Assembly: GCA_003971905.1 (NCBI GenBank)
Contig: RSEE01000074.1
Coordinates: forward strand, 1-64,000
Direction of reading: 5' to 3'
Origin: Moniliella sp. 'wahieum'
Lineage: Eukaryota > Basidiomycota > Moniliellomycetes > Moniliellales > Moniliellaceae
Length of the DNA: 64,000 nt
The notes beneath the pieces were generated by a model, which was given only the letters and a program-made list of their open reading frames with translations, made no database searches and was not told where the DNA came from. A program made the position numbers and the translations under genes. Below, one piece after another: positions 5,293 through 64,000 of this stretch; position 1 is the stretch's first letter, and each line of letters opens with the position of its first letter.

Positions 5293-5555
5293 CGTCGGCG
5301 CCCTAGGCTTGTGGCAAAGGTGGAAAGAAGGAAGTGGCAATTAAGAGGAGGATAAAAGTGGGTGGAGATATGAGGGATGGGAAGCTTCATGTGTCGGAAG
5401 AGAGGGTTTGGAGATTATATGTGGGCCGTGGTTCCTAGGAAAAACTGTCAGATCTCGGGGTGCCGCGTCCTGCATGTTCTCCCTCCTCCAATTGATGGAG
5501 CAGTATGTACGACGTAGTGTAATAGTGTGATAGTAAACGCGGAACACTCTAGCGT

Positions 5556-5583
5556 TCAGGCCTCAGGCCTCAGGCCTCAGGCC
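5556..5583. repeat. Heptad array TCA+GGCC, four perfect units
   Basis: Four exact tandem copies of TCAGGCC. Each unit combines TCA with the self-complementary tetramer GGCC. A looser GGCC cluster follows at 5709-5731. Confidence 0.95.
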
Positions 5584-7150
5584 CAACAACGACAGGCACC
5601 CTCAAACCCAGAGAACTGCCCCCCCCGTAAACATTAAACGCGTGAAGCGTCAAGCGTCAGTACTACTCAGTGTGGGAGATGCTGGGGATGCGGTTGCAAC
5701 TTTTGGTTGAGGCCCTCAGGCCCCTCAGGCGCCACAGGGGGGCGAGTGTGGCGCCTGTAGCCTCTCAGTACCTTAGTCGAGATGATCGATGATCATCAAT
5801 ACACCTTTTTGTTTTTTTGCTCCCTTTTGTCACACATGTCACTAGGCCGCGGAGCATGGGAAGCTATGGGATACTACAGGACACTACTCCGTCGATACTC
5901 GATACGATGAGATGGGATGTGGGATACAATGTGATGTGGGATACTCGATACGATGCGATGTGACATGTGATGTGACATGTGATCGCAAGTGATGGGATGC
6001 GATGCACGATGGGGCATAGGATGGGCGCCAAGGAAACCTCGCTGCCCTCGCAGCCGCCATGGAGCATGATGGAGAGCGGCACAGCTTGTCTCATGTCAAG
6101 AACATAATAGGCAACAGTTCTAGTTCTATGACGTTTTGTTGGATCAATATTCAATCGCGTTCAAACGTTTACACTGCTATCAAACGATTAGCAGGCGAGA
6201 AATAATGATTGTGGCGTCCGCTCAACTTTCAGCGATTTCAGCCTCAGCCCGAGCGCTGAGCCGCTCACATGCATCACAGTGCTCTGACGCTTCGGTCATT
6301 AACATTAATCATTACACTCGCCGATTTCAGTGTGCATCACATATGATGCGTGTGATGCAGATGGGCCGCTTGAAGCTGTTTCGAGCGATCCGAGTCCTCA
6401 TGCCATTCTTTCTGATCTTGGTACTCCATATGGTCCTAAGCGCTATTAACCGGATTAACCGTGCTATAACCCCATCAGGATACGGGCGGGCCCACCAGGC
6501 CGGCCTGGCCTCGACCTCACCGGCCTCACCAGTCGTTCGGCGATCTTAGCGCTGATCTCTCAGCTCTCCAGTGGCAGCCGCACAGCCTCTCTCAGTCTCT
6601 CGCACGACCACATCTGGTATATCAACATGAAGAGCAAGTACATATGTCAATTGGGTATAGCGCGAATCTTTACGCGTTAATCGCTTGGAAGGATGGAGGT
6701 CTAGGAGTGCTGGTCTAGTGACCGGCCTAATAAGGCCTCTCTGAGGCCTGAGGTGAGCCTCAGGACTAAGGCCTAAGGCCAGAGTATACTAGTGATTAGT
6801 GATTGATGACTGTGGTAGGTAACTGGTGACCGGTAAAACCGGTAACCATCGATCATGGCTGCGGTCACTGAAGATCACCGGCACCACACGCATCGAGCAG
6901 ATCGACCATTTTGTGATTGGTGTTCTCTGATCATCTTGATCATCAAACAGATCGCCCACACAAGTATGCGCAACAGGCCAGAATAGACCTCGTTTGTTCT
7001 CCTTGGATGGTTAATCGATTAATGATTACACCGATTCATGCATGGTGATGCACCCAGGTGAACCGACGGTAACATACTCGAAGATACTATACTGATTGTG
7101 GGCAACCCACCATGATCCTGTCGATTCTTCTCGCTGTTTATTTTCTTGTT

Positions 7151-7346
7151 TGTCAGGATACGGAGATGGGGGAAAGGGCGCAGATGGATTGCATACATCT
7201 ATGGACGCAGAGGAGGTATATGTACCTCCTCAGGAAGGGGGCACAGTCGAGAGGTGGACACAGGATCTCCCAACTGATAAGAATCACGCCATAGTGCCCA
7301 TACGGGTCTAGTGGCCAAGGGGCCCTAGCACGGCGTGAGTCTGACA
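7151..7346. repeat. Dispersed sequence, long copy (partner at 35405-35492)
   Basis: 7151-7194 matches 35405-35448 with two differences. 7303-7346 matches 35449-35492 apart from small homopolymer-length changes. This copy has 108 extra bases in between. The extra segment is bordered by CATAC at 7192-7196 and 7299-7303 and contains a perfect hairpin, AGGAGGTA-TATG-TACCTCCT, at 7211-7230. Confidence 0.85.
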
Positions 7347-7829
7347 TTGTTAAGTCTCTTTTCTCGCCTTTTGTAGAAGGCCAGTGAGTATTAGGCAGTT
7401 GATGGCGTATTGCATTACGCATGAGCTCTTCGTCATGTCAAGTACAAAACGCGCTTCGAGGCCGTACAGCTACAGCCTCCTCATCCTCTGGACGACGTAC
7501 ATCAGACATGGTTTCCTGCTACTGACGACAGAAAGCGGTACTCCGCCATGCGGGTGAACTTTGCATTAAGGCTGCTGTGGGATCGGCGTATAGACGATGG
7601 ACCGGAGGATAGCATGGGTGATATGAAACGGTGGACCGGTGGACTAGTATGTGAACTGTGGGATGGTGGACGGTGGACGAGGGGGGAAAGATGACGGGGA
7701 CCTTCGAATCGACATGGAGACAGGCCCAGGCGAAGCCCCAGTAGACTTGCAAAATACAGACTCCGGTAAATCACCATCTCAAAATAAGGTACCAGAGCGG
7801 GCCGTACTATAGGCGCGGTGGTCCCCTCG

Positions 7830-7846
7830 TAACGCGTAACGCGTAA
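7830..7846. repeat. Heptad array TAA+CGCG
   Basis: TAA CGCG TAA CGCG TAA. This is the TTA/TAA variant of the heptad rule with the tetramer CGCG. Confidence 0.9.
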
Positions 7847-8149
7847 TAATGCAGAATGAGCAAGGATGGAGTTCTACGGTTGCCTGTGGTGATTAACATG
7901 ATGCCCTCCGCCATTTACTATTTACTACCCTTACTAAGTCACTGTTATCTATCGCTCCCCCGGATAATCGATAACCGGGGATCGGAGCAGGACCGGGCAT
8001 GTTATTGACTCTTTCCCGCCCCGGCCTCACCATTTCGCCTTATCTTTCCCTTGTTTTTAAGGCTTAAGATCTAAGGCTTTTGAAACGTGTCTCCCCATTA
8101 TTGCTCCCTATTCGGTTTTCTGGTTGTACTGCAGGTGATGCATGTGCCT

Positions 8150-8184
8150 TCAAGCTTCAAGCTTCAAGCTTCAAGCTTCAAGCT
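8150..8184. repeat. Heptad array TCA+AGCT, five perfect units
   Basis: Five exact copies of TCAAGCT, making overlapping AAGCTT palindromes every 7 bp. Confidence 0.97.
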
Positions 8185-8230
8185 CTTCAAGGTTATTAGC
8201 CAATCACATTTTTCATGAGTCGCTTATAAT

Positions 8231-8339
8231 AGCCTTAAGCTCTGTCAATGATATGGATTCGAAAGGCTAGTCACTAATAATAGTCACTAGTCACTGGTCA
8301 GTATACTGCATCCATATATCATTGACAGAGATTAAGGCT
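8231..8339. repeat. Imperfect inverted repeat around a CTAG heptad cluster
   Basis: The left arm (8231-8258) and the reverse complement of the right arm (8310-8339) share CTCTGTCAATGATAT and agree over about 28 bases, with one substitution and a 2-base length difference. The 51-bp loop holds several TCA-CTAG units. It could form a cruciform or be a miniature mobile-element relic. No target-site duplication is obvious. Confidence 0.75.
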
Positions 8340-10160
8340 GGGACAACTATAAGAATCGCTGCCCCTAAACCGACCCGTTCACCTGCGTCTGATATTACTA
8401 CTTCTGATAGCCACTACTTAGTCAGTGATAATCATCACTAGTCACTAGTCATTACAGTAGTCCTTTGGCCTGAGACTGAGTACTCAGACTCAGTACTCAA
8501 ACTGAGTCCTAAGTCGTAACTGGCGAAGATGAAGCGCTACTTAAAGAGTAACCGCGGCTTGAAGTGTAACAAATCTGTAAGTAATGATTAATCTGTAAGT
8601 AATGATTAATGACGGTAACTGACGTGTGTTTGAATAAGAAATTACTACATGCGGGGCTTTGCGTCCACAGAGGTAATCGGTAACCGGAGCACCCTGTATC
8701 AACATGCCACAAATTATCGATTATCACTGAGATAATAGTGATAGAGTGTCCTTCACATAGTTAGTTTGCTGAATTATCCAATAGATGCAGGGCTAGTTTT
8801 CTAATAAAGGGTTTGTGCTTCGAGTGCTTAGAAGCCCCTTTCCGATCTAATTTCTCTCCACCCCTTCTTTCGCATTTCACCTTAACACCGCAATGTTCCG
8901 AACTCTCTGTATTTTGGGGGGCCAGTGGGCGTATATACACCTTCCGCTGCATCCCAAAGGTGGGAAAATGAGACTCCAGTGCTCCTGGTGTACTCTATTC
9001 AGTCGACAGATCTTATAGATATTCAGCGAAGGAAGTGCGTTTTTGGGTCCATCTCTCTTTCTGTTGTGTGGGAAGACGAAGGGAATGAGGGAGAGACGGT
9101 TGTTCTGTTTCAAGAAGAAGCGTCTTGACAGAGGAAGGATACAGAGGGGAGAGTCGGACAAGAAGGAGTGATTACGAAAAGCTGACATGTTAGCGTAGTT
9201 TGCAATCACTACGCCAAAAACACTGCCATCCTTCCTACTATGGGTTAGATCAAGATCCTGGTCTACCTAAATAGGTGAATTGAATGATGAGGGGGCAGAA
9301 AGCCCCGCGGAAGTGTGGTTGGTGCTTTAAAGGAAAGCTCTGAATGATATTCAAAGCATCTTTCACACACCGTAGAAAAAGACGACCTTCTGAGGCAGCT
9401 AGGGACGCTCTGCACGTATGATGAGGGCATGTATCGGTGTGCATCTGAATGCCTACAACCGTGGGACAATGACGGACTCGCTCAGGCCACCACCTCTCAT
9501 ATATCGTCAAAATGCAATGAAAATTCACCGAAGCCACCAACGGGGGGTAGTGCACGACTGAGACGCGTCCCCACACCCTTTTACCACGACCACTCCTTTT
9601 TTCGTTACGACATGAGTGCGATGAGTATTTCTCCACGCGCTCAGCCCGTCCAAGAACCATTCTCGTCTATAAAGAGAGGGTGGTGACCCGAGTTGGAAAT
9701 TCAGGTCGGCGGTTACCGGTTACCAGGGAAACCCTGTGATGTCAGGTCCAACACGCTGAGGGGGGCAGGTGGGGGGGGTCTGACCCCCAGATGGCGGCTG
9801 TGATGCGCTGTAATGTGCTTCTTCTCAGCAGTGCGAAAAGGAAGGAGGCTCGCTCAGGTGAGAGCGATTGAATCAACAGCGCGCAAGACGCTTTGGTGCA
9901 TTGCCGTCGGGCAGCGGAGGCAGGACCGCGGCGATGCCGTCGTTGGCGGAGGTGTGGCAAGAAGGCTGGAAGGGGACTGAAAGCGATGACGCAATTCTGT
10001 CCAACGTCAAAATGGTTGGCCGTCCACGGGACCGTCACCGGTGGGTGAGCGGTGGTGGGCACAGGCCAGGTGCCCGCGAAGGGTGTCCACCGGCCACTGT
10101 CGATCAGATATCTGGTCGGTGATCGATGCGGCGCGTCCTGAGTATGTACTCAGGCACCGG

Positions 10161-10203
10161 TCACCGGTCACTAGGTCATAGTCACTAGTCACTAGTCACT
10201 CAG
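10161..10203. repeat. Mixed heptad array, CCGG then CTAG, just upstream of the arrestin gene
   Basis: TCA CCGG TCA, a short irregular spacer, then TCA CTAG TCA CTAG TCA. It lies immediately 5' of the ATG at 10210, within the likely 5' untranslated or promoter region. Confidence 0.85.
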
Positions 10204-10209
10204 TGCTGA

Positions 10210-12475
10210 ATGTCGGTTTTCAAAACCCCTACGCACTCCCGCCGTTTCAGGCGTTGCGCCCGCCACCAAACAGAGCCCGCGCCCCCCCGTCGTCATCCGC
10301 ATCCGCGCTGCGCTCGGCGGCGCTGCTGTCGGCGCTTCTGCAGGCATGTGACGTGCGCGTACGTGTGCTCCAGAACGCCATCTTCTTAGCCCCCCTTCCC
10401 GCCGCCACCCAGCTGGCCGGGCGACGAGCCGACTGGGCCTATCTTACCGACAGCCCGCCCGCTGCGTCCGACGCCGAGCTGGTGCGTGGCGTGGTGGAGG
10501 TGAGCGTGCCGTCGGACCGGATGGTGGCGCAGGTGCGCGTGAGTCTGTGTGCGGACCAGGTCGTGTCCATCTCGACTCGGCCGCGCCACAGTGCCGGTCA
10601 GCTGGGAGCAGACGGCGGCCTTTGATCGCGTGCTCACTTCCCCGCCAGCAGTGGCACTGCGCTTGCCTCGTCCACCCCGAACCACGGCGTTCCCGCTCCC
10701 ACACCCCGGCATCCTCTCGTGCTCTCGTTCCGGCTCCCGCTCCCAGACGCCATCTTACGCCGATTTGCACTTCCTCCCACCTTCATCTGCCCCGCCTCTG
10801 GCCGGCCGCGGGCAGCCCAGCTCCAGCACCGACCGCCGGCCCGCAGCTCTTTCCGTTCGCTTGTCCATGCCTCGCGCTCGCGCTCCCGTGGTGTGGTGCT
10901 GGGCGACGTCGCCGAGCTCGAGTCAGATGGTGAGCCACGCGGCCGGTCGGCACTCAGCAGTGGCCATAGTTCCCGCCCACGCTCGCCCGATGACAACCCT
11001 GAGCTCCGGCCCCGCTCCCGTTCTCGTGGCCGATCTGCGGTTGTACGGCCTGCCACAACAGGACTCTCTTTCTCTCGTACAAGCAGCCCTTCCTCTCGGT
11101 TTTCCCGCCCTCCTTCAGCTGTGCTGACACCACCTACCAATCCTGAGCCTCCCCTTGAGCGTCCCTCCGTTCCGGTGTCGGATCCACCCTCGGATTCACC
11201 TTCATCTCTCATCCGTTCGGCTTCTGCAGGGGTGCGGTCGCTGTCGATCAACAGGTTACGCAGAGGTCTTTCTTCCTCCCGTGGTGGAGAAGACGGAGGC
11301 CGAACGTGTTTTGTCCAGCGCGGTCGGAGTGAGACAGGCCGGTCAGGCGTGCGTCATTCGTCTTTACCTCGACCTTCTCTCGATTTGACGTGGGTTGCAC
11401 GCGACGATTCAATGACGCGCGAGAATGATTACACCTCGGACTCGGGCTCGGACGAGGAAGGTGAAGGAATCTTGCTCGTTAAGGGGGAGCATGCGTACGT
11501 TACCATTCCTCTCTTGGTGTTCCCTCTCCATCTGGTTCTAACCTTTTTTGGCCCGTGAGTAGCTTTGAATTTTCGTTTATCATGCCGTCGGATGCTCCAC
11601 CTTATGAACGCAGTCCGTTTGGTCGCGTGAAGTGGACCATCAAGGCGACTGTTGTCGGTGGCGGTCGGGCCCGATCGAACGTAGAAGATGTGGCAGAGGT
11701 GTATCCCATTGTCATTCCCAATCCTGAGCATTTCTTCGCCACACCCCTCTCGATCTTGTACCACGACCTGCACCCGACTGTGGGGTTGCTATCTCTCTCT
11801 CTCACCTCCACCTCAGTCTCTGTCGGAGGCGTGCTGCACATCGAGGTCCAGTCGCCTCAGCCCCCCCCTGACCTCGCTGTTTACCTGTGTCGCGTCACAC
11901 TGGAAACGACGATTGATCTCACGACGCGACGGAGGGGGAAGCAACGTGCACCCGTCCAGCGACATCGTCTCTTTGAACAAGGCTGGGTCCCACCCAAGCC
12001 GGGAAGTACCAAGCCCGGGGAGGGCGACGAGGCCCAAGGCCCGATCCGCATGCCTGGTTCCCACCAGCCGTGGGGTCTTGAGGCCACCGTCCGCCTGCCT
12101 GATGACAATGCGATCCGGCCGACCACCATGCCTGGGTCCCGCGCTTCGATCCGGTTCACGCATTCCCTATTGGTGGAAATCGTCCATTGCCGCCAAGGGA
12201 CTACGGGCGCTGAGGGCGCACCTCCCGAACTTGCCGAAGGCGAGCGAAAATCAAGGTTTTCGCGCTCCGGCAAGCTGTGGTGATCCCCTCCTTGCGTGGC
12301 GTACAACGCGGTTACGCTCCCTCTTTACACTCGCTCAGATCCTCTTGAGGGCGCCGAGGCTCGACCCCAACTGAACCCACATGGGAAAGATGAGCATGCG
12401 CGGTGTGTGTGTGGGCTTTCTCTCGAGGAGCTCAAGGCCCAGCAACAAGCCCTTTATTTACTGCTACTCCAGTGA
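10210..12475 (+). CDS. Alpha-arrestin-like trafficking adaptor
   Basis: Fungal alpha-arrestins recruit Rsp5/Nedd4-type ubiquitin ligases to plasma-membrane transporters and so drive endocytosis. The N-terminal arrestin fold starts around DVRVRVLQNAIFLAPLPA and VRGVVEVSVPSDR. It is followed by about 250 residues of Ser/Arg/Pro-rich low complexity. The core resumes with GILLVKGEHA, then after an intron FEFSFIMPSDAPPYERSPFG and RVKWTIKATV. The C-terminal domain continues to VTLPLYTRSDP and RCVCGLSLEELKAQQQAL before the stop at 12473-12475. The intron 11495-11562 has donor GTACGT, branch CTAAC and acceptor TAG, and splices in frame (EHA to FEF). The start at 10210 is the only nearby ATG and needs a frame change soon after. 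I see no clear PPxY motif. Confidence 0.85.
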
Positions 12476-25971: not shown

Positions 25972-26002
25972 TGATGCATCATGCATCATGCATCATGCAT
26001 CA
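25972..26002. repeat. Heptad array TCA+TGCA, four tetramers
   Basis: TGA TGCA then three TCA TGCA units and a final TCA. Overlapping ATGCAT palindromes recur every 7 bp. Confidence 0.97.
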
Positions 26003-26037
26003 TGTGGTTCGATGATCAAATCGATGGAGGGAACCCG

Positions 26038-26084
26038 TCACGCGTCACTAGTCACTAGTCACTAGTCACTAGTCACTAGCGTCA
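26038..26084. repeat. Mixed heptad array: CGCG then five CTAG units
   Basis: TCA CGCG followed by five consecutive TCA CTAG units and a closing TCA. The tetramer changes from CGCG to CTAG with no loss of 7-bp register. Confidence 0.97.
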
Positions 26085-30365: not shown

Positions 30366-30473
30366 TGGCGGTGGAGGTGATGGCAGTGGGTGTGAGGATG
30401 TATCGCGCTGGATGCTGGGGTAAGGTGCTGTGGGCGCTGGAAGACCAGCCTGCTGGGCGCAGCGTGCTCAGTG

Positions 30474-30501
30474 TGAACGTTGAACGTTGAACGTTGAACG
30501 T
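30474..30501. repeat. Heptad array TGA+ACGT, four perfect units
   Basis: Four exact TGAACGT units, followed within 60 bp by TCGA and GCGC variants of the same rule. Confidence 0.97.
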
Positions 30502-30717
30502 TGGTGTTGATCGATGATCGGTGACCAAGCGCCGAGCGGTCAGCGCTCAGCCGCTCAGCGCGTCAACGCGTCAGGCTCCGCCGCTGGCTTCTTCTGGCTC
30601 TGGCCTCAAAGCTTCAGGCCAACCAGCCTCAGGCTCAGCCGTTCACTGGGTACGAGCTTGAAGTATAGTGCCAGTGGCAAGGTGACACATGTGACATGTG
30701 ACCGTGACCGATTGCAG

Positions 30718-30734
30718 TCACTAGTCACTAGTCA
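30718..30734. repeat. Heptad array TCA+CTAG
   Basis: TCA CTAG TCA CTAG TCA, preceded at 30681-30700 by TGA CATG TGA units. Confidence 0.9.
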
Positions 30735-32902: not shown

Positions 32903-32967
32903 TCAAGCTTCAAGCTCAAGCTTCAAGCTTCAAGCTTCGTGACGCGCGTGACGCGTGGCGCGTGACT
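32903..32967. repeat. Compound array of AGCT units, then CGCG units
   Basis: AGCT-type TCA units with one short unit, then TGA CGCG-type units. Between the two halves the spacer flips from TCA to TGA. Confidence 0.85.
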
Positions 32968-33144
32968 GAAGTGACGGAATTAAGTACCAACGCTTAGTCA
33001 CTCACTGGTCCCCCTGGCTGGTCAGCTGGCTCAGCGGATTGGTTCGTTGAACGTTAGTTGAACGTTGAACGGGTTGAATTTCACACCTTCAGATGTTCAC
33101 ATGATCATCGGATCACCAGTCCGTCTCCGTCCAGCGAGATGGTG

Positions 33145-33161
33145 TCACATGTCACATGTGA
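33145..33161. repeat. Heptad array with CATG
   Basis: TCA CATG TCA CATG TGA. The spacer changes from TCA to TGA across the tetramer, making the end of the array a longer palindrome. Confidence 0.9.
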
Positions 33162-33848
33162 TTGCCCGCGTCACACGTCAGGCGCGTCAGGCCGCGCGTC
33201 AGGCCCTCAGGCCCTCTCAGCCCATCGTGGAATCGCAAGTCACAATGACATGTATCTTCAAGCTTCGAGCTTCAAGCTTCAAGCTTGAAAGTGAAGCTTC
33301 AAGTTCCGAAAAGTTCCGCAAGGTTCCGAAGCGAGGCGGCCGCGGAGGCGCGGAAGAGTTGTCAGACGCCTGTATATGTATTAGCAATCGCTTCTCGTAA
33401 TTCCCCTTCCAATCTCCAACCTCCAACGTGCGTGTCCCACGCGATCCCACGAGCCACGGCCACTCCCGTTGCTGTTGGAAATTTACCGATAACCTATGTA
33501 ATGATTCATGAACGTAGGGACGTATAGAGTTCGGAGGTACGACTGCCACATGTGCGCCCTGTTTATTGTTTGGCATCATGTGCAACATGCATTAAAGTGC
33601 AACAGGCAGTCTGTTGGGGGACAGAGACCACAGCCCAGTGCACACGTACCAGGCCGTGGCCGAAAGCGCTTGGAATATGGATCCCACGCCCTCTTCTAAC
33701 AACACATGGAACAAGGGAACATGCATTGGTACAGAGGACCAAGTTACTGATGCATGATGTACTGTGACAGTGATGTATGATGTCCTGAAGCTTGGCATGT
33801 TTGACAGCTCAGGTGAGCGACGTTATTCGCGTCATGCACGTCATGCAG

Positions 33849-35997: not shown

Positions 35998-36025
35998 ACG
36001 TTGAACGTTGAACGTTGATGCATGA
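35998..36025. repeat. Mixed heptad array: ACGT units switching to TGCA
   Basis: ACGT TGA ACGT TGA ACGT TGA TGCA TGA, all in one uninterrupted 7-bp register. Confidence 0.95.
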
Positions 36026-38706: not shown

Positions 38707-38727
38707 TGCATCATGCATCATGCATCA
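38707..38727. repeat. Heptad array TCA+TGCA
   Basis: TGCA TCA TGCA TCA TGCA TCA, then CGT. Confidence 0.95.
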
Positions 38728-39024
38728 CGTTCCACAGTCCGCCCCAATAGCCTTTTGTCGGTTCCCACAAACCGCAACTGCAGTCCATATGATAGACGGA
38801 CTCCAGCGGCCTTTTTGGGCTGGATGTGGCTGATGGATGTCACCATGTCAACTTCCACTATATATAAAGCGAAGACAACGGGGGGCGTCGTGTGGCTTGC
38901 TCCGCACGGTGGTGTGGCGAAGAAGGGGCCAATAAGTGGTAACTGGTAACGGTGTAAGTGACGAGTGTGGCACCTCAAGCTTCAAGTGGCAAGTAGCAAG
39001 GGCCCTTGTTTAAGGCTTTTAAAG

Positions 39025-39098
39025 TGAAGCTAGTGAAGCTTGAAGCTAGTGAAGCTTGAAGCTAGTGAAGCTTGAAGCTAGTGAAGCTTGAAGCTTGG
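39025..39098. repeat. 16-bp higher-order tandem repeat built from AGCT units
   Basis: Four exact copies of TGAAGCTAGTGAAGCT (39025-39088), then TGAAGCTTGG. The unit is one 7-bp TGA+AGCT heptad plus a 9-bp TGA+AGCTAG variant. Confidence 0.97.
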
Positions 39099-39354
39099 AG
39101 CATCCTGTTCAACGTATACATAACTGTCTGCGGTCTTGCAGAGCACCGTGCTGTCATACATGTCTCAGTGCTTATAACAGAGCCTAATCTATAATCTAAC
39201 CCACAAAACACCGCCGTTGGAAATAAAATAGACCCTTTACCAAGACCCGTTGAAGGCGCACTGCTCTTCAAAAACGTCGCACGCGCCCGACCGGGGTCAC
39301 CGAGACGAGTCTCATGACGTTCCAGACGATGATAGCAATGAATGAACGTTCAGT

Positions 39355-39382
39355 TGAACGTTGAACGTTGAACGTGGAACGT
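39355..39382. repeat. Heptad array TGA+ACGT
   Basis: Three exact TGAACGT units and one GGAACGT variant. TGA TCGA units follow at 39459-39472. Confidence 0.95.
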
Positions 39383-42305
39383 TGTCTAGTTGACTGTGGC
39401 GAATTCGGGAAGACCTCTAGGAAGGCAGGCGATACGAGGAAGAGCAGAAGATGATCAATGATCGATGATCGACGATATCTGGACTCGGTGCCAGAGTTGG
39501 GTCTGGGCACAGCAGCATCGATATGAGACACCGAGCCTGCTCACTGGGTCTCTAAGGGTAGTGCTCGAGAGGTAGATTATAGTCATGGGCGGAGACTCTA
39601 GGCCGGCAGAAATACGTTGACGGAGCATGATATCGAGTACGGGAGGGAGGCATGGCCCATGGTCCATAGCTCCCGCTAATATACACTACCTCTCAAGCAC
39701 GCACACAGCCGCCTTCTCTTTGGAAATCAGATCGATTCTTTTTCAGATCTCACATTATTTTGTTGTCAAAAAATATGCCACCACACGAAGGTCTACCCTC
39801 CTACGAGAAGAGGAAGGGTGGGATCTGAGAAATGAGGGTAGGGGTGGCGTTCCGTTGTTCAACGTTCGTGTAAGACCGGAGGAACCCAAGGGGTTGGGTG
39901 ATGAACCTCTGGAAATTTAGAAAGCAATACAATCGCGGTGTGGTGGTGGTTAGGTCTAATAAGCCTTATGCCACACCTAGAGGAGACAGAGGTTCAAACA
40001 AAGCCTGAGTATACACGAGGAGACTTCGTAGGTCAAATAAGGGGCAAAGGGTGATAAGGCGCCTTGGCCTCTGTACGGGACCGCGGTTCTCAACAGTTCG
40101 TCTGCTCAGCATTTAGCTCTTCTTGCTCAGACCTCATATTGAACGGAAGCCTGTTGAATCTGGTGCTGTGCTTGCGACCAGAATCTTTGGAACGGGGCCC
40201 CACCGTCGTAAAGCCCAGTTCTTCAAAAGGGGGCGGTTTTTGGAGGATCCGTACGGTGGAAAGCCTGTGAGTGTTGGTATGGGTCGGCAGGGCAAGCCTC
40301 CTCTTCGGGGACACGAACGATTAAACGTATACACTCTCGTCCCACCACTCTTGGCACAGACCGAAAAAACCACCAGGCCTCAAGCAGAGCACTCCCTTAG
40401 TAGTATATACATGCGTTCATGCAATTCATGTGTCATTTGCAGAGCTTTAAAGCTTTTATTAGACAAAAGGTTTGCGCCTAAACGTTTCCCTCATTCACAT
40501 ATACTACAGAACACCTTCTTTCGAAAACGTTGACGGCCGGGCTACCTACTTCTACGGACCACTCATGCCTCAGACTGAAGTCTCTTCCCTCTTTATCTGC
40601 CTCATCAAGTTCTGTTACTGTACTAAGCACTCAACCTCTACACCACACTAATGTCACCGAATGACTAAGCTCGCTCCAATTTCCAATTCTGCATGCTGTG
40701 TCTCCCGCTCTTCCCTTCGCTCTTTTGCTTGTGATATCTGCCCGATGCCTTCTGTTTCCTTCCACGAACAATCAGTTGCCTTTCCCTCCGCCTCTGACAG
40801 GACCTTGTCTCCCTCGTTTAGTCCCGACTGTTACATGGCGCGTTTCATGAAGATAGTGCCGAAGCCAAGACCAACTCCATTTTTGGGAGGTACTATCATA
40901 TCACGAGATGCATGTGTTGGAGATGAGGCGGATGAGGGCTGTTGAGCTGTTGATGGTTAGCAACACTACATAGTCGTGATTTTCATGGATGGAATACTAT
41001 GGAACATCTCTCTCCTCAGATCCGCAGCCCTACCCCCTCTTGCGCCAAGAGTATAGTTGCACCTCACATCGTACCAGCCGCAAAGATATGATATCCTTAT
41101 AACACCGTCCACATAGCTCCCGCAACTAATACTGTTCCGACTATCGTCCCCTCTCGCCCTACTATCTTCTCGGAATGTCTCTTTCCCGCTCAATGAGTTT
41201 TTGTTCCAGGCATCTCTGTGTAGGCGAATATCAATGACGCCCCAAGCCGCTGATGGCCACACAAGAAGCACAATAGGGCACAACTGTGATCAATGTTTAC
41301 CTCTGAGCCTGCTAACCAGACTCCCGTCGTCCGTGGCGATATGTTCGACTAGCCAGGTTCGATACAATCACTTGCTGTGTTCCCCTTGATTTACTATCCT
41401 CTGTTACTCACCCATTATCTTGCATAGTTTTGGCCAGATTGCTATATCTCTCTCCTTAGACACACGGCGTTACACTCAACTGTGACTACTGCTTTTGACC
41501 GTTTTACCCTTACACCAGCTCAACAGAAACAATGATTTCGCCTCGCTTTGCGGGGTATTACCAGGTCTTGCCGCTGCTAACGTTCACCCTCGACAGCTCT
41601 TGTCTTGCGTCGGCCGAGTAGACAAAAATCAATTTCTCCAAGCTCTCTGTTGACATTCGCCTCGCATGTGCCGCCGCGGGCACAAGATGTGGTTTATAAC
41701 GCATGACCACATGTGGGCGAGAATATTAGGTCAACAATGCCTTTCCCCTTCAGATGCTGCTGCTCCAAGGGCTGCAGTCTTCGAAAGATCATTTGATCGC
41801 AGATATCTGAATGGACACCATTCTTCTTCCCCATTAGTAGTACCTACTAAAAGATGCATTTGATGGAGCCGGAAATAATCCCACTTTTCTCACGACGCTT
41901 CTATAATAGCCAGATTAATGCCAACGTCCCGGCCCAGATAGCAGACGAAAAGGTATGCTTGCCTATTAGACGTCTAGCATGGGGCATGTTCCTCCGTGAT
42001 GCGAGAGCTGTTGACGTGAGATTAAAGGGTAAATCGATGTGTTTGGATCTAGACAGTTGCATCAAGCGTTAAAGGCCAATGGTCGAACCCAACTCTGGCT
42101 CTAATCCATCACCTTCTCCTCATCGACCTCATCATTCTGCCCGTCCGGCTCCCTATAGGCCAACATTACCCGTAGGATATTGCTCCGGGACACCGATACT
42201 GCGACGCAATTACATTTTCTTTGGTGAGATTTTGAGCGGAGATAAAGTCGGAATTTGGTTCATTTCCAGACAAACCCAGCAGGAGTGTGAATCCACCGCA
42301 GGAAA

Positions 42306-44423: not shown

Positions 44424-45353
44424 CAAGGCGGCGCTTGTTTCGTCCAAACTATGATGGTTTCAAACGCATCCAGTCCACCTTTCTCTTCCCGTTTCTGTGG
44501 TACTTGTAAACCATTGAAGGAATCTGAGCGCTTTGGTTTGGTTCAATGTCGTTTGGGTGCAAGCAACGGCTCTCACTAGCCGAGCGCAAAGGTGGGGGGG
44601 GGGGGGTGATCGATAATGAGTCAGTCGAGTCAGTACAGTCAGTCCAGAGGGTACAATGCAAGACAGGAAACGTGAACAAGCGCGAAATAGCGGACTAGTG
44701 GGGAGAGATGAATAGCAAGATGGGGTGTGCCTCGAAATCTTGTGGTGCGAGGAGTGTGGCAGCCTCTCGGCTATGAGGAGATGCCACCTGCCCCCCCCCC
44801 CCCCACAAGGCAGAATAAGCTAAAGCCCATATCCGGCTCGTGCCCCATCAACATACATATTGCGCGTTGCCGAAGGGAGTTTTACCACAGCCATCCAGGG
44901 CCTTGGTAACGTTTACCTTGCACCCGAGCCGTGACGTGTCCGTCAGACCAAACGCCAAATCCAGCATATCAGCCTTCTCGTCCCCGGTTCTCCAGTTGGT
45001 CAAACACTTCCGGTTCGAGGATCACATGGCACGTACGCTAGCCATGGCCAGCGACTTAGTGGTGCTCATTAATCATTGGCCAAGTGAGGTAGCGATGGAA
45101 CTGTACGGATGGCGGAGAGAGGGCGGGTGGGAATGAGAGCGATGAGATGAGAGAAGGAGAAGAGAGCAGCAAAAGGAAACCTTTTGCAGAGTGAGATCTG
45201 AGACGAAGCAGATGAATGATCGCGGTGACCGATGATCGATGATCATGCACCGACCGATCACCGATCATTGGTCTCCAATACTCATCGATCGTCTTGCCCA
45301 AGGCCCGAGTTCTCCACTTCCACGACCAGCTCCCCCCTCTTCCATCCAGCCCC
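44424..45353. other. Intergenic between nitronate monooxygenase and ARP6
   Basis: No recognised gene. Contains a G-run near 44595, a C-run near 44793 and TGA-TCGA heptads at about 45230-45245. Confidence 0.5.
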
Positions 45354-48409: not shown

Positions 48410-48440
<31 letters not shown>

Positions 48441-55240: not shown

Positions 55241-57144
55241 CCGCTGCAGCCGCGCAGCAGCCGCACGGGGGCACTGTCACGCGCGGCGGGCACTGCGGGC
55301 GTCGTCTGCGCCTGCCGTTTCAGTCGTTTTTCCATCTGCATCCTACGCGTACTCCGTCTGAGTACGCAGTGCCTCAGCGCAGCCCCCGCACCGCCTACCC
55401 GCTCCCACGCTGGCGTGAGCTCAGCTCTCGTGACCCCTGACGCTCACGCTCACGCCTCAGCACCTCAGCCTGACGCCCAGACTCCCCCCGGTAAGCTCAC
55501 CGACCGAGCGGCTCAGCGCCAGCGGGACGGGCCAGGCGCTGGCCTGTGCTGACAGGCGCCGGCTGCCTCCCGTCCAGTACAGGGCCAACTTGAATTGTTG
55601 AGCTGAGCACGCAGAGTACTGCCCTACTAGCACTACTCGTGGCGGCCGACGACCCAGATCGTTTTGACAGAACTTATCAAGCTCTAGCTTGAGCAGGGCT
55701 TGAAGGCGGAGTACAATTGGGTCCTGGGCCTGCCAGAGCACTAAAGACGAGTGCTCAGTGTGTTCAGCCACACTTCACATGGAGGGCCTCCGTCAGCGCG
55801 TGGTGCCGCCTGCATACTAATAGTGGCACCGATATCTCAAACACCCGGTTTTCTTAGGTGCATTCCATCCGATATTCCTTCCTAGAGGGCAGGAATATCC
55901 TCTACACTTTGTACCCTTAACGCAATCAACGTTCAACGTTCAACTATTATATCTGCGTGTCTGATCATCGAGTTACCTAATCATCGTTACCGGGGCCTTA
56001 CTGGTTACCGACGCTCAGCGCTTAACTATGCGCTTACCGGTTACCACGCAACGTACTTGAAGATTGAACGTTGAACGCCAAACGACGCGCCACGCGTCAC
56101 GCGCAGGGATTGGAATCTCAGAAACTTTCTCACAGGCCTCGGCCTCATTGCCTCATCGATCATCGAGCACCGCACTCACTGTGCACCGTGCGCGTACAGA
56201 CAGGTGCTGCGACTGTACGCAAGCGGCTTTGAGACGCAAGAGGTTCATTAATCGATTAATCATTGTTACGTTCAACGTCACGTTCTGTTGAATGGAAGCT
56301 CAGCCTGAGCGTTCAGCGAGCGGTTCAGCGAGCGCCGCTCAGGCTCGGCGTTCAGTCTCAGATCCCAGCCTTACCAGTTATAGGTTGCCGGTTACCGGTT
56401 ACCGTTACGCGCTACCGGTTACCGGCCTCAACAAGCGACTAGTCGCAGTGACTAGTGACTGGTGGCGCGTGACGCGACGGAGGGGCCCGGCATGTGTCAT
56501 CGTAATGTGATCCATGTGACACGGGACGGTCAATGTCCTGCCGCCCAGCGCCCGTGTAACACGTAAATCAATATAAATAGCCTCCCAGTTCGATTTCAGT
56601 CCTCTCAGCTTTCAGTGCTGGCCTGTATTGGGTTCAGCCGCTGGGCGCTTAGCCCTAAGTCTACTCAGTACTCAGTTTCAGTGAGTACTCGGTAATCCTC
56701 TGCAGCGTTCCGAGCGCAAAAAAGGCCATGCTGTACAGCGGTGGACCACATGCTGCAGGAACCCAGTCCAACATCGCCCATCCTGCATCCGTCCAAAGAC
56801 AACCTGTCGATCCTGCTATTGCAACACGACATCGAGCTAGGCACTAGTCACTACTACTTCATCGAGTCAGCTAGTCCTAGTCATCGATCATCTCGCAATG
56901 GGGCCGAGGACAACATCCGATAACTTGGTACTTACAAGTTATTAGGTCCCCAAATCAGTAACCCGTACTCTGAGATCTGAACGTCTGAACCCAGACATGC
57001 GCGTACTGTGCTTCTAGTGATGATATTTCGACAACCAACAATTGAAGCCACATCGACCGGTGGCCATCGACATCCAGCATGCCAGGCCAGTACCAGGCCC
57101 TGCCCAACCACACCCAGGGCATGTGGCAGGTGACATGTGACATG

Positions 57145-57207
57145 TGAAGCATGTGAAGCATGTGAAGCATGTGAAGCATGTGAAGCATGTGAAGCATGTG
57201 AAGCATG
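57145..57207. repeat. 9-bp tandem repeat TGAAGCATG, seven perfect copies
   Basis: Seven exact units, preceded by TGACATG heptads and followed by TGAAGCTTGA. The unit is a TGA triplet plus AGCATG, and CATGTGA remains as a sub-motif. Apparent ORFs through it (repeating HAS, HML or CFT triplets) are artefacts. Confidence 0.97.
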
Positions 57208-57331
57208 TGAAGCTTGAAGAAGCCGTCGGAGAGACAGGTGTCCGGTAGGAGCGCGCACACCTGAGATGTTCCATCGATGACCTTATTATAACAGAGAGTG
57301 TATACGCGCAGGCGCTCGCGCTCAAGCTTCA

Positions 57332-57458
57332 AGCTTCAAGCTTCAGTTCTCAAGCTCTTCAAGAGCTTCAAGCTTCAGTTCTCAAGCTCTTCAGAGCTTC
57401 AAGCTTCAGTTCTCAAGCTCTTCAAGAGCTTCAAGCTTCAGTTCTCAAGCTCTTCAAG
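57332..57458. repeat. 32-bp minisatellite, four copies
   Basis: Four units of 32, 31, 32 and 32 bp that contain AGCTTCAAGCTTCAG and CAAGCTCTTCAAG. It is rich in AGCT palindromes and follows a plain TCA+AGCT heptad run at 57321-57343, so it seems to be a higher-order derivative of that heptad. Confidence 0.95.
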
Positions 57459-57516
57459 AGCTTCAAGAGCCTCTCTCCGCGAGGGTTAATGCCAAACGTT
57501 AAACGTTATCGATCTG

Positions 57517-57555
57517 TTACATGTTACATGTCACGTCGTTACGCGTTACGCGTTA
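57517..57555. repeat. Heptad arrays TTA+CATG and TTA+CGCG
   Basis: TTA CATG TTA CATG TCA at 57517-57533, then TTA CGCG TTA CGCG TTA at 57539-57555. Confidence 0.95.
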
Positions 57556-57996
57556 CGCAAGATACATATCGCGCGTGTGGCATATAAAAGTGTGCTTTGA
57601 CGGTGAAATTGGTGAAGCTTGAAGGGTAACCGGTAAGGCCGGTAATCGATAATCGACGACCCTTGTGCATGCTCGCGCTCATGTGATGCTCAGCGCTGAG
57701 GCTCAGCTGAGCGCGCCCATGCCATCCATGACAATGTGACACAGAGAAAGCCAAGGCGGAGATGAGATCGATGAGACCGAAAAACAACGTAGGCATCTAT
57801 TGAAGTTCTTTTTTTCTGGCAGCAACAAGAGTTGGTTTGGTACTGATTCGGAGTATTCAGACACGTACTGAACGTACTGAGTAGTACCGACGTACTGAAT
57901 GTTGAACGTTGAACGTGTTATACACGTAACGTTGAACTCGTACCCAGTATACTCAGCGTTGGACTGAGTGAGGCCTGAGGCCTGACTGAAAGCATG

Positions 57997-58038
57997 TTAA
58001 CGTTTAACGTTTAACGTTTAATGTTTAACGTTTAACGT
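57997..58038. repeat. Heptad array TTA+ACGT, six units
   Basis: Six tandem TTAACGT units. The fourth has ATGT instead of ACGT. This is the longest TTA-spacer array in the window. Confidence 0.97.
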
Positions 58039-58100
58039 ACCGTGTAGTACGTGTATCGTCGACGTATCATCGATTGATTTCGTTCATTATCATTCCCTCA

Positions 58101-58124
58101 TTATGCATTATGCATTAACGTTTA
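58101..58124. repeat. Mixed heptad array: TGCA units switching to ACGT with TTA spacer
   Basis: TTA TGCA TTA TGCA TTA ACGT TTA, one register. This parallels the ACGT-to-TGCA switch with TGA spacer at 35998-36025. Confidence 0.95.
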
Positions 58125-58544
58125 ACCTCATTGACCATTCCGTACCATAGCGTAACGGCGACCGGTAACTGACGGTAACCGGTAACCCCCCGTATATAGT
58201 AGGTCACTAGATCACTATACAGATTGGTAGAGTATGACTTACGAAAACACTCGCGATCCTATATGGATCAGCTGCAAATTCAAACAGCCTTCATCAGATC
58301 TTCAGACAAGGCGTGAAGGCAAAGGCTGAGCTTGTGCTAACGTCTGCAAGCGTCAAGCTTCAAGGTGAGATTTGACATGCCGTTTTTGCCCGTAGAAATA
58401 AACAACCAGAATGTTTCGCCTCTCCACAAACAATCGCGTGTTGAGAAAGAGAGAAGATCGACGGTGGCCGGGGTGTAGGATGTGTGACATGTGAATCTCA
58501 TCGATCATCTCTGTCATGCATATTGAGACCATCGGCCCTGAGCC

Positions 58545-58569
58545 TGACCGGTGACGGTCACCGGTCACC
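58545..58569. repeat. CCGG heptads with spacer inversion
   Basis: TGA CCGG TGA CGG TCA CCGG TCA CC. The spacer inverts from TGA to TCA across a shortened unit, so the whole forms a near-palindrome. Confidence 0.9.
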
Positions 58570-59450
58570 CCACCATTCCACACCGGGCTCAGCGGCTCAG
58601 CCGCCGCCTTCTCTCCTGTTGCTGCGGTGATGGGGTTGGATGACTCGTTGACCCTCCTTTTGTTGTTGGGCAGAGAAGCGGCTTGCGGGACTTAGATCTT
58701 AGAGGGCACTTGCCGTTCACACTCTCATTCTCTCAGAGATCACTGTTCAACTCAACGTTGACCCTGAATCAGGCCTCCCTTCAATATAAATCAGCCATAT
58801 AAGCTCTAGGCCACATCGGCCTTGCACAGGCAACCTTACCGGTATTGACCCGAGGTGAAATCTGAGATTTCGATGGGATGGGAGATCTCAATCGTCCCCG
58901 GACCCAATCCACTTCTCGGGGAGTACCCGCAGTAGTACGCAGTAGCGCGTGCCGTACCCCTGATCCTTCATCTGCACATCCACACATGTCCATGCATGTC
59001 CATCCCCATCCCCATCGCAGATCACTAATCACTGGCGCGTCTAAACCAAAAAGGGAGAAACGCCTGACACCTACCATTTGCTTCCCCCCCACGCTGCAGT
59101 CGAACCGCGGTCGCGGTGGATGCGCCGTGGAGGCTGGTCGTGCGAGACAGTGCTACACTACGAAAGGAGCGGTCCCCGTCCGCGCCTGGATCGCGAGACA
59201 AAAAGAGCGAAGTGGTCATTGGTCCAACGGGGAACAAGGGGGGTATGACGGAACGAGGGCGAAAAAAGACAAGGATCAAAGGACATGAACTGATGAGGCG
59301 GAAAAAGAGAGCAACAGTCACAGCGAGATAATGAAGATGGGAGGGGGAGATGGGATGGCAGAGCAAAATCCCACCGTCAAGGGGCGAGTCAGCGTGTGGC
59401 CTAGTAAGTTAATAATGGTAAATGAAGGCAGAGTGGGGGGGGGGCAGGGG

Positions 59451-60377: not shown

Positions 60378-60599
60378 TGATCAAGTCCGGAAGCGAAACC
60401 GAGGCGTTGGGGGAGTACGAATGCCGGCTGGAACGGCTCGGTAGCTTGGGACAGGTAGAGCGGGAAGAGGGGTGGGCATGGAGGTCGATGGATGTGCCAG
60501 GAAGGAGGCGTTGGTACGGGCCGCTGAGGGGGATTTGGGGCAGAAGCAGTCGGGGGAGGCTGCTAAGGCCTTAGCGCGCGTGGGGGCAGAAGGGGTGGC

Positions 60600-63529
60600 A
60601 TGAGCCACTACAGGTGCAAGGGCGTGGAACTTTCACCAGGGTGGAATGGGTCGGCGAACGACGAGGCATGAGGAACGACGATTTGGGGCGGGGGGTAAGC
60701 GAGACATGACTCCACTTGTTGTAAACCAAAGTGAGGTAGATGGAATCGTCGGCAACCGGGCGGGTGTGGGAGACGCAGCAATCAGATCGGTTGGGACGGG
60801 GGGGAATGGTACCTTCTGGAAGCCACTGGCTGTTGCTGGCGTCGTCCCACCCGTCGAGGCAGGCGATACCGACGAGGACAGTTTCGTATGGACGCGGAAG
60901 CAGCAGCTGAAGCAGCGGTGGGAGAGGGGGAGGCGAACGGGGTAGAACCACGGTGCCCGTGGTGGTTGCAGTCCCCGCATTAGAGGGAGAGAGCGAGAGC
61001 CCGCGCAAGCCACGCCCTGGCGAAGGGGAGTAGTTTCCCCTTGAACTGGCACGAGACCCACCGCGCGAGGTTCGAGCGAGACGAGAGACGGTGTGCGAGA
61101 TGGAGGGCGAGAGGTAGGATGGGTAGTAAGGGGGAAGGAAGGCCGACGGTCGAAGGGGGTTGCGGAGTGTGTGGTTCATCTCTAGGTGATCGACGGCTGA
61201 AGCGGACGGAGAGGGTCAGCAATACTAGCAGATAATTGCAATGATTTATCCCTTCGTCCACAGGAGCAAGGCTAAGGCAGCGATCCGGCGTTGTACCTTT
61301 GTTGCGTCCCGCGCGAAAGCGGCAAAACCCGCGGTCAGAGCGTCATGACGTTTGTCTAGTTCCTTGGCGTGGACACGAGGTGGCCATGAAATGCACGTTC
61401 GGCCAAGGCAGCCAGGGCAGTCCGGGCTCGGGAAAGAGCAAGAAAGTACTAGTCTTTTCGATTCGTCAGCGCCCGCACTGCCGAACTCAGCTCGTCAGCC
61501 GTTTTGGGACAGCAGAGACGGCTCGACCTCGTGCGAGCTGGCAGAGATCTCTTTTTACTCTTTCCGGCTGATCCAGACCATCCCGAGCGGTCCGCAGGGC
61601 CATCTCGAGCGCCGCACATAGGTCTGACGCATGGTTGACCGTGGAAAAGGCGCTGGCCTGGTTATCGGACTTGGCCTCGTCCTGGGCCATCCGCGCCTGG
61701 TTGCATCCGGGCCCAGCATAGCCCCAAGTGTGGTGCTGTGTTTTCAGCGAAGCGATAGCACAAGCATCGCTGCCCGTGGCCCGGGCGCAGACTCCCCGGT
61801 AAGTGGGAGCGAATCGGATCGTTCTCGTCCATGGGTTGGCTGAGGGGGCGGACACGGTCAAACTGCAGTCCCAAGGGGTTGGATCCCGTCGTTTTGTCCA
61901 TGTCCATTGCGGCGAACTGCGGGGAGCACTCTGCCGCCCATGGCTCTGCTGTCACTCGCCCCAAGCGGGTGGGGGCAACAAGGACTCGGATCAACTCATC
62001 GTCAAGCTCCCATTGGTCTCGGTTGTGGCGGTGGTGATGTAGAAGCCATACTGGTCGTTCGCGTGTGAACATTGGCACCGTTTCCGAATGGAACTAAATC
62101 GACGTGCGGCAATGTGCCTTGAGCAAAAGCTCGTTCCACCTCAGGTAGTATAGTGGCTGCTTGATTGGCACATTGCTCGGCCTCCGCCATGGTTTGATCC
62201 AACCGAGCGGATACGGTGGCTAGCGCATTCTCTTGGTCTATTCCTGCACCACCTGCCACCACATCTGGGGAATGACGCACTTCCTGGAACCGAAAGAGAG
62301 CGGCTTGGACGGCCTCGATTGCTTGGCTCCATGCCGCGGCGGTACGGATGGCCATGGCGATGGATACCTCGGTCTGGTCAAGTGAGAGGGGGATCTTGCT
62401 GGGGCCTACACTGCGGCTGGGAAAGGGCATGGCGTCAGCGGCAAGCGGCTGGGGATCTCGGATATTGGACAAAGGAAGCACCCGAGCAAGGGTGTGTCGC
62501 AGGCCGTCGGATACGGAGACTGTGCGGGACCGAGGGAGGAAGCCATCGGAGGCAGGGCTGTCAGGCGGTACGGGTACGGACGATGAGCGAGATCCAGGCC
62601 ACGGGGTGGTGGGGGTGGGGCCTGGCGTGGTGGGAGTGAGGAGGTGCGGCTGGTGGGGGCCGGCAAGGGAGCGGGAGCGGGTGCAAAGAAGCGCATACTT
62701 TTGGGTGGTTCAGGCGTGGGCGGCGATGGCGGCGGGGAGGGGGGGGGGGGTAACGGCGGTGGCAAGGATGAAGACCGCGCGGCGCAAGAGATGGGCGGCG
62801 GGACGAGGACGAGGACGATGGCAGGCATGGGGAAGATGAGTTGGGGAGGGGCACAAATGGTGCCAGAGGATGGGCGCCGAGGGTGTTGGCGATGGGGGAA
62901 AGCGGGGCAGTGGAGACAGGGTGCGGGGCAAGCGGTGGCCGAAGGGGCACGGGCGCGTGCAGTCTGAGCAAAGCCGAGCGTGCAGGCGAGCCGGCGGACG
63001 ACATGTCGGCGGTGGAGCGTGTCTGGGCAATGGCTCGCGCACGGGCCCGCGCCCTGGCTACGGCCGAAGCGCGGTCGAGCGAAGCGACAGGGGGGCGCGG
63101 CACATGCACCGGCCTGTCCACACCATCCGCCGCACCCACCGCACCCATGGCATCTGCCGCGCAACTGTGGGATCCAGGTGCTGGGAAGATGTGCGGACGT
63201 CCGCGGTGGTTGCCGCGGGCATGGCGATTGCCACCTGCACCAGCGCCAGTGCCATCACCAACACCATCACCAGCACCGACACCATCAGGACCAGGGCTGG
63301 GGGAACGGGCCGGGCTGTCTGGACCAGGGCCGGATGCTTGGAGGGCAGCCGAGGAGGAGGGGCCATCGGGTGGGCACTCCATGTGTGGCGGAGGGCAGGC
63401 ACTGGGGCTGTGGGTGGTGGGGGTGGCGGGGGGAGGCGGTGCCTGTCCGTCCTCAACCGCAACGGTGTGTGGACGAATGGCCATGCTAACCACACCCTGT
63501 GTGGCGCAAGCGCAAGTTGAAAGTGGCAA
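60600..63529 (-). CDS. Uncharacterised helical protein with disordered N-terminus (tentative)
   Basis: The N-terminal half (63529-62500) is Pro/Ser/His-rich. A helical region follows: LDQTEVSIAMAIRTAAAWSQ, then LATVSARLDQTMAEAEQCAN and ILPEVERAFAQGTLPHVDLV (62380-62095), continuing through frame changes with WELDDELIRVLVAPTRLGR, QPMDENDPIRSHLPG, ASDLCAALEMALRTARDGLD and, near 61340-61260, KRHDALTAGFAAFARDATKV followed by QRRIAALALLLWTKG. Long alpha-helical, coiled-coil-like character suggests a scaffold protein, but I cannot name a family. The 61180-60600 tail is Ser/Pro-rich. Bounds and unity of the gene are uncertain. Confidence 0.4.
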
Positions 63530-64000
63530 AAAGCCAGCTGCATGTGCCCTCCAACGCCATCGACGTCATCGATCAGTACTGAGATCCTGCAGCACCCACA
63601 TCTTGTGCGACCGATGTGATCTGTGTGTGACAGCTGGTTGATTCAGCCCTGGCCGCTTGCCACATCTGCTTCCCCCCTCCTCAGCCCACCAGCACGCCCA
63701 TGCGACAGGGCGCATCGTGGCGAGCGCCCTCCGCTCTGCCATGCAGTGGGGCAAACGCCAGATGGGTGTGCGAGGTGCAACACATGCATGCATGGTTACT
63801 AGTTACGCTTACTGGTTATTAGGGTGGGGCCACCTTTTGCTCATTAACAAAGCAAATCCTCCCCACAATTTTAGACGCAGGGGCCTATCTGTCCCTTTTT
63901 CACTTCGACTGGTCCTATGTATATACCACCCCGCCCTACACCCCTCGCCACCCGTCCCAGCATCAGCGTTGTTGCTGCCCACCGCTATTCAGCAGCAGCA
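63530..64000. other. Intergenic, right edge of window
   Basis: No recognised gene. Contains TTA CTAG TTA followed by TTA CTGG TTA at about 63796-63819, and a TATATA box-like stretch near 63920 that may belong to a promoter beyond the window. Confidence 0.45.

Follow-up and report, generated by a model that had tools for sequence, protein, structure and literature searches.

Results

Heptads of TNA and a palindromic tetramer are scattered through intergenic DNA

The stretch analysed here, called the window, consists of 64,000 nucleotides of Moniliella sp. 'wahieum' (contig RSEE01000074.1, positions 1 to 64,000; C74:1-64000), DNA that appears eukaryotic judging from its genes and retrotransposons. 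Glyoxal oxidase, GH18 and copia-type RVT_2 domains were matched in the DNA examined, which would fit a fungus and perhaps a basidiomycete; an RTP1-like exon used as a protein query had no match. Between the long open frames, in DNA that we call intergenic from those frames rather than from gene annotation, lie short arrays with a period of 7 bp, in which the triplet TNA (T, any base, A) alternates with a self-complementary tetramer. A preliminary description had listed twelve such arrays and read them as a family of favoured palindromic motifs, each joined to TCA or TTA. We examined the window together with 20 stretches of 10 kb, each starting at base 400,001 of contigs C1-C20, in total 264 kb of an assembly of 69.5 Mb in 223 contigs; the 20 stretches represent one fixed position per contig and are not random draws. 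Below, W4 denotes any tetramer, P4 a palindromic tetramer, and a', b', c' and d' the complements of flanking bases.

With a minimum length of 12 bp the window contains 133 period-7 runs of TNA plus palindrome, and with a minimum of 14 bp it contains 73, compared with means of 0.74 (maximum 3) and 0.05 (maximum 1) in 100 dinucleotide shuffles. Across the 264 kb, runs of at least 14 bp, counted on both strands and then halved, number 149 for TNA+P4, against 0 for ANT, 1 for CNG and 1 for GNC. Where two TNA triplets with the same N are separated by four bases, these bases are palindromic in 360 of 625 cases. When all 64 trinucleotides were counted in this way, the palindromic share was 0.60 for TCA/TGA (280/467) and 0.51 for TTA/TAA (80/158); it did not exceed 0.12 for the other 60, among which CAT/ATG ranks next (44/378). 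The 265 non-palindromic TNA-W4-TNA pairs are close to background, since ANT pairs with that spacing, palindromic or not, number 238. Two-copy repeats of period 7 have a palindromic unit in 151 of 249 cases and TNA in 149 of those 151, and among period-5 repeats odd-palindromic units make up 112 of 412, about the share expected by chance, the commonest being G+C-rich words without TNA. Genome-wide, three copies of TCACTAG gave 262 matches (overlapping matches within one array counted separately) and the reversed control none; three copies of the non-palindromic permutation TCACAGT gave one match, as did its reversed control.

All twelve places listed in the preliminary description hold at least one palindrome between TNA triplets with the same N. 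As pure heptad arrays the listed stretches fare less well, since at least six of them (TGCA, CATG and TCGA, and above all CCGG, GCGC and GTAC) contain switches between TGA and TCA. The arrays are not limited to a few motifs: every one of the 16 palindromic tetramers is found flanked by identical TNA triplets, AGCT being the most frequent among the 360 (50), and many occur as composition predicts. The all-A/T palindromes, which the preliminary description had not seen in arrays, are rarer but not missing (TTAA 11, ATAT 3, and TATA and AATT, the lowest counts, 1 each). Both TCA and TTA are found, as described, but they form the single class TNA, which is best read as a target-site preference.

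Each heptad is a direct duplication whose palindrome is copied from its own flank

A site abTNAcd is rewritten as abTNA-cdd'c'-TNAcd or as abTNA-b'a'ab-TNAcd. Each palindrome is therefore cd followed by its reverse complement, or the reverse complement of ab followed by ab, copied from the bases flanking its own TNA, and not a member of a set of favoured motifs. The two triplets share the same N (TCA-P4-TCA 164, TCA-P4-TGA 15), indicating that the duplication is direct and not inverted. The heptads are duplications, not a microsatellite family. Among arrays of at least 11 bp, those of 12 bp are the most frequent, and most of these read TNA cd d'c' TNA cd or the mirror form of it.

Besides four bases, gaps of five and six bases between TNA triplets are also present. 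By positional covariation, many of the pairs at spacings 8 and 9 proved to be direct repeats of a 7-bp NNTNANN with one or two bases between them, a rarer product in which the duplication is kept in full. At spacing 9 the intervening bases tend to complement the neighbouring repeat ends; of the 29 full 7-bp duplications at spacing 8, 26 have an extra base that complements a neighbouring end, where chance would give about 13. We classified isolated pairs as joints of two ends, each with up to two complementary extra bases, and compared TNA with ANT. Joints of type (4,0) number 54 against 2, type (0,4) 42 against 0, joints compatible with several readings 79 against 2, and (4,2) and (2,4) together 15 against 2. 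Blunt joining without extra bases (2,2) is not enriched (10 against 13). Around 150 single scars in 294 kb, only T and A stand out in the target, together with a depletion of A at N. A symmetric signal of T at -8 and A at +8 was also seen, which we read as decayed neighbouring heptads and not as target preference.

The arrays are not specific to the window, as each of the 20 sampled stretches contains at least one. They are denser in the window, with 133 arrays per 64 kb against 161 per 200 kb in the sampled stretches; if the latter are typical, about 56,000 arrays would be present in 69.5 Mb, a rough figure because the stretches were not drawn at random. In scar-rich blocks, which were picked after viewing the density map and contain no long open frames, TNA-P4-TNA amounts to 5.6-13 per kb and footprint-like duplications to 11-25 per kb, compared with 0.3 and 0.8-0.9 per kb in two gene-rich blocks.

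Repeat families and homologous contigs provide sites before and after the change

We aligned 23 copies of LTR1, a family of solo long terminal repeats (LTRs) of 219 bp. Five carry the predicted insert (L029, L033, L036, L038 and L043). Three are exact gains of 7 bp (L029 GGTGA-CC-GGTGATG, L033 CCTTA-GG-CCTTATG, L038 TGAGG-CC-TGAGG), L043 has a three-unit array of 14 bp, with one base substituted, from a single TAAGG site, and L036 is imperfect, with the form AATGA-TT-AATGA, a net gain of 6 bp and one adjacent G fewer. In LTR2, a younger family with 0-8 substitutions per copy, none of 42 copies carries the predicted insert.

Two contigs are homologous to the window, C78 (positions 2001-42000, L089-L092) and C203 (6001-14917, L093), with blocks 74.6-95.1% identical, as in a heterozygous dikaryon, a diploid or a hybrid. 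They were aligned block by block over 25.6 and 11.3 kb (mismatches 4.6% and 6.0%), excluding blocks below 78% identity (57399-57892 and 7668-8570). Among 84 insertions or deletions (indels) of 5-11 bp, 21 match the model of a joint with a TNA pivot, and each of the other 15 pivot classes is matched by 0-4; for indels of exactly 7 bp the match is 17 of 28. The L029 insert and the indel at 39896 are one event, counted among the 21. The empty copy lacks a further identical TNA at a distance of 7-9 bp in 14 of these cases. For most pairs the two copies show a difference that may be a gain or a loss. The change is a gain in the LTR copies and at 42118, in the latter case because a third copy (L015) is also empty.

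Repeated hits probably account for much of array growth

Two-triplet arrays make up 253 of 294; three, four and five triplets are found in 31, 9 and 1. The first step ratio, 31/253 or 0.12, is close to the fraction of TNA sites that are scarred in three scar-rich blocks (28/364, 73/655 and 42/266, or 0.08-0.16), so that independent further hits would explain much of the growth. If a scarred site were hit again, a uniform array would result three times in four and a composite otherwise, and in a composite each palindrome would match the flank on its own side. We found 43 uniform and 16 composite arrays, against a model ratio of 3:1. The palindromes of the 16 composites match their own flank on both sides in 8, on one side in 7 and on neither in 1; some of them are not independent, because the tally includes homologous copies such as window 31344 and L090:7842.

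A proposed model of excision and hairpin opening

The chain of steps that we infer behind these observed products is as follows. An element would insert through a 7-bp staggered cut centred on TNA, duplicating its target NNTNANN. On excision both flanks would be sealed as flush hairpins, and a host nuclease would nick each hairpin 2 nt 3' of the tip, leaving a self-complementary 3' overhang of 4 nt on each side (left cdd'c', right b'a'ab) and recessed 5' ends exactly at TNA, since the 7-bp duplication has two bases on each side of TNA. One 3' overhang would then be ligated to the opposite recessed 5' end, while its counterpart is lost and the gap is filled in, to give (4,0) or (0,4), the main products. 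Nicks at 0 or 1 nt would account for spacings 8 and 9. In this chain palindromy is a by-product of hairpin opening. Repeated hits would build arrays and composite arrays, and most later hits would give a perfect heptad because the new site d'c'TNAcd is itself palindromic. Sites in the window, and in C78 at the corresponding position, are collected in Table 1.

Table 1. Heptad arrays, single scars and related features, in window coordinates
Feature	Position	Strand	Remark
(TCAGGCC)4 array	5556..5583		
(TCAAGCT)5 array	8148..8184		
(TCATGCA)4 array	25974..26004		C78 homologue holds an insert of about 1.4 kb inside, apparently LINE-like by its ends
(TCACTAG)5 array	26044..26079		
Scar in C78 only	26107		TGACT -> TGACT-AG-TGACT
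(TGAACGT)4 array	30474..30503		
Scar in window, not C78	31544..31558		AGTTA-CT-AGTTA
Scar in C78 only	32096		TCATC-GA-TCATC
Composite array aaTTA-TTAA-TTA-GGCC-TTAgg	32755..32775		Per the model, both overhangs of one site aaTTAgg would have been used
Scar in window, not C78	32875..32881		TCTAA-GA-TCTAA
Scar in C78 only	33177		TCAGG-CC-TCAGG; empty copy has another TCA 7-9 bp away
(TCACGCG)3.7 array	33848..33873		
Scar in C78 only	33993		CCTGA-GG-CCTGA
Scar in window only	35818..35824		TCAGA-TC-TCAGA
Scar in C78 only	35851		TTACT-AG-TTACT
Scar in C78 only	38137		GCTTA-GC-GCTTA
Solo LTR (LTR1)	39868..40096	+	Same-site C78 copy carries GGTGA-CC-GGTGATG
9-bp scar CCTCATC-GA-CCTCATC	42118..42126		Empty in C78 and in repeat relative L015
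Scar in window only	45192..45198		TGAGA-TC-TGAGA
Scar in C78 only	56375		AGTTA-CT-AGTTA; empty copy has another TTA 7-9 bp away
8-bp scar TCTGAAC-G-TCTGAAC	56976..56983		Full 7-bp duplication plus 1 base
8-bp scar GCTCAGC-G-GCTCAGC	58586..58593		
Scar in window only	58691..58697		TTAGA-TC-TTAGA
Scar-dense stretch	30400..39600		73 TNA-P4-TNA and 137 footprint-like duplications in 9.2 kb
Densest stretch	55800..59000		42 TNA-P4-TNA in 3.2 kb
Scar-rich stretch	5300..10300		28 TNA-P4-TNA in 5 kb

Other repeats in and near the window

The repeats found in the search for resident elements are mainly solo LTRs, several with 5-bp duplications. LTR-like repeats with TGT..ACA or similar ends lie in the window at 7151-7346, 25425-25614, 35405-35493 and 39868-40096, with 5-bp duplications at 7151 (TTGTT), 35405 (CGCAG) and 39868 (GTTCG) and none clear at 25425. 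Some 108 internal bases are missing from the copy at 35405, which does not occur in homologous C78. At L089:7784-8643, C78 holds an insert of about 860 bp that is not present in the window, has 10-bp inverted ends TGTCACGGGC and a 5-bp duplication GAGAC, and is probably a solo LTR. L090:960-2385 and L089:2875-3976 are two copies of a LINE-like element of 1.1-1.4 kb with similar starts and ends and a TAAAAGA end, one of them inserted in the array matching window 25974-26004. L011 and L019 contain repeat sequence that is matched by L016:4339-5069, an imperfect inverted repeat some 730 bp long. Tandem units of nine and sixteen bases built on TGAAGCT or TGAAGCA occur at 39023-39101 and 57141-57194, the array at 57141 being shorter by 54 bp in C78; both may have begun as heptad scars that ordinary unequal exchange then enlarged.

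Discussion

The heptads appear to be scars of a known type at unusual density, and at the level of the DNA product the observation is explained. The proposal of the preliminary description that one common process, other than ordinary slippage, lies behind a dozen motifs is supported. We take the heptads to be excision footprints of a putative cut-and-paste DNA transposon, with a probability of roughly three in four (0.77). Such an element is probably low in copy number and fast-hopping, which would fit many scars and the lack of resident copies in the DNA read, where about 0.1 copy would be expected from a total of a few dozen. Because the expectation is so low, the absence of a resident copy leaves an element and a recombinase free of any transposable element undecided.

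Several results weigh against the transposon. The length of the target duplication comes from the scars only, and a scan of the sample for terminal inverted repeats flanked by an NNTNANN duplication met no resident element; TNA matches in that scan were nearly all heptad arrays pairing with each other, and one or two others (for example L018:1277-2277) stood at the level of the control patterns. No NNTNANN-flanked element was seen by eye among the large differences between the window and its homologues, which in the case of C78 are LTRs, a LINE-like element and a remainder of unclear nature. Protein profiles of hAT (PF05699, PF14372) and KDZ/Plavaka (PF18758, PF18759) had no match in the genome and that of RAG1 (PF12940) none at E<=5, the control genomes likewise giving none with any of them; the MULE profile (PF10551) had no match at E<=1, with matches in 4 of 14 control genomes (six-frame translation, introns unhandled). 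The rve integrase profile gave 148 matches and also matched the controls. Since only PF10551 and rve match in controls, the silence of the transposase profiles is weak evidence of absence. Among the scars themselves, 50 of 313 single TNA-P4-TNA match neither flank, which we put down to later mutation; 63 of the 84 indels misfit the joint model, as does an 11-bp insert in L038, the only other LTR1 insertion of at least 5 bp. The second array step, 9/31 or 0.29, exceeds the first, so slippage or hot sites may extend the longest arrays. GCGC and GTAC were each found 9 times, where flanking composition predicts 31 and 18. This two- to threefold deficit could reflect a bias in hairpin opening or ligation, and the same bias is possible for cd = AA (0) or TA (1), nearly absent among the 150 single scars.

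If no element is ever inserted, a host or domesticated recombinase or nuclease might cut NNTNANN with a 7-nt stagger and form hairpin ends, with repair writing the duplication. Many scars without a resident element in the roughly 300 kb read, the silent transposase profiles and a very weak target requirement (T and A only) speak for this alternative, which we nevertheless regard as unlikely: it needs a filled 7-nt stagger plus a hairpin at each end, both of which insertion and excision supply by known chemistry, and a low-copy hopper likewise predicts zero residents in 0.3 Mb. Replication slippage of self-complementary heptads promoted by hairpins, a microsatellite process, seems very improbable. 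The arrays are self-complementary except at N, a further identical TNA lies at a distance of 7-9 bp in 7 of the 21 differences that fit, and the raised second array step points the same way; yet the other 14 begin at sites without such a neighbour, the ANT, CNG and GNC analogues are equally self-complementary but nearly absent, and slippage predicts no composite arrays with flank-matched palindromes such as those found here. Founding events at single-copy sites and in LTR copies already count against slippage; it may add to long arrays. Snap-back copying was rejected as well, since N is identical rather than complementary in the two triplets and only T-N-A is found, though C-N-G and G-N-C would pair equally.

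A central TNA or TWA triplet is typical of the PIF/Harbinger superfamily. An element of this type, with a 3-bp TNA duplication and remnants forming the palindrome, would agree with the 3-bp duplications given for canonical Harbinger (PMC12730594). It has very little chance of being correct and is already contradicted: a 3-bp duplication cannot place cd, from the right flank, on the left copy, nor ab on the right, the scars at spacings 8 and 9 need a 7-bp duplication, and element ends would leave a constant palindrome rather than one derived from the flank. We assign almost no weight to the idea that the heptads were selected because a bZIP-like or other protein binds their TGA/TCA half-sites. 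The half-sites, their fixed spacing and their position outside long open frames would suit it, but the four inner bases cover all 16 palindromes and are tied to their own flank, N is nearly free, and scars inside solo LTRs and differing between homologues already contradict it.

Transposon activity is usually gauged by resident copies; here scars are dense and the DNA read yielded no resident copy. Each scar records the target, the position of hairpin opening and the strand joined, so that together they form a natural, genome-scale assay of hairpin opening and end joining. They also offer one route for the growth of intergenic DNA, usually by about 7 bp per hit, and a caution that apparent families of palindromic microsatellites can be repair scars. 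The prediction is an undescribed mobile element or recombinase, active recently enough for scars to differ between homologous copies. More tentatively, and with the odds somewhat against it, the agent might belong to a new transposon group, or be a domesticated recombinase, and combine RAG-like flush-hairpin chemistry with a 7-bp stagger and a target of T-N-A only, with scars at about one in ten TNA sites in scar-rich blocks and repaired breaks, not element copies, as a main source of new intergenic sequence. If this were true, the genome would be partly written by V(D)J-like joints.

A literature search, mostly of titles and the openings of abstracts, found no account of such scars at this density. 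Compared with microsatellite slippage, the changes here are not confined to existing repeats and involve TNA units only; compared with PIF/Harbinger, the duplication is of 7 bp instead of 3 bp; and of MULE elements the transposase domain (PF10551) was not found here. In V(D)J recombination, RAG forms flush hairpins whose opening leaves P nucleotides, Artemis opening them 2 nt from the tip, and the scars described here show the even P-nucleotide palindromes of such flush hairpins. The target duplication of RAG and Transib is 5 bp. The wider clade duplicates 2-5 bp (PMC12730594), unlike the 7 bp here. The same source gives a 7-bp duplication for hAT7 of rust fungi, a fungal DNA transposon with the length that we deduce here from scars only, and usually 8 bp for hAT elements. 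Footprints of hAT elements (Ac/Ds, Tam3, Hermes) resemble the present scars in that the target duplication is kept and palindromic P nucleotides from opened hairpins are added, and Ds excision in Candida albicans, for which flank hairpins are the explanation given, left short deletions or insertions of palindromic P nucleotides (PMC5873905). In that account the hAT palindrome is odd, its central base complementing the one that borders the element; the scars here are mostly even and flush, with 175 TNA joints at spacing 7 and at most 21 odd ones at spacing 8. Palindromic repeats of organelles, such as the double hairpins of Allomyces and the A/T palindromes of Fusarium, are likewise optional intergenic palindromic inserts (PMC7218506), but these are fixed elements or homopolymer palindromes, whereas here each palindrome derives from its own target.

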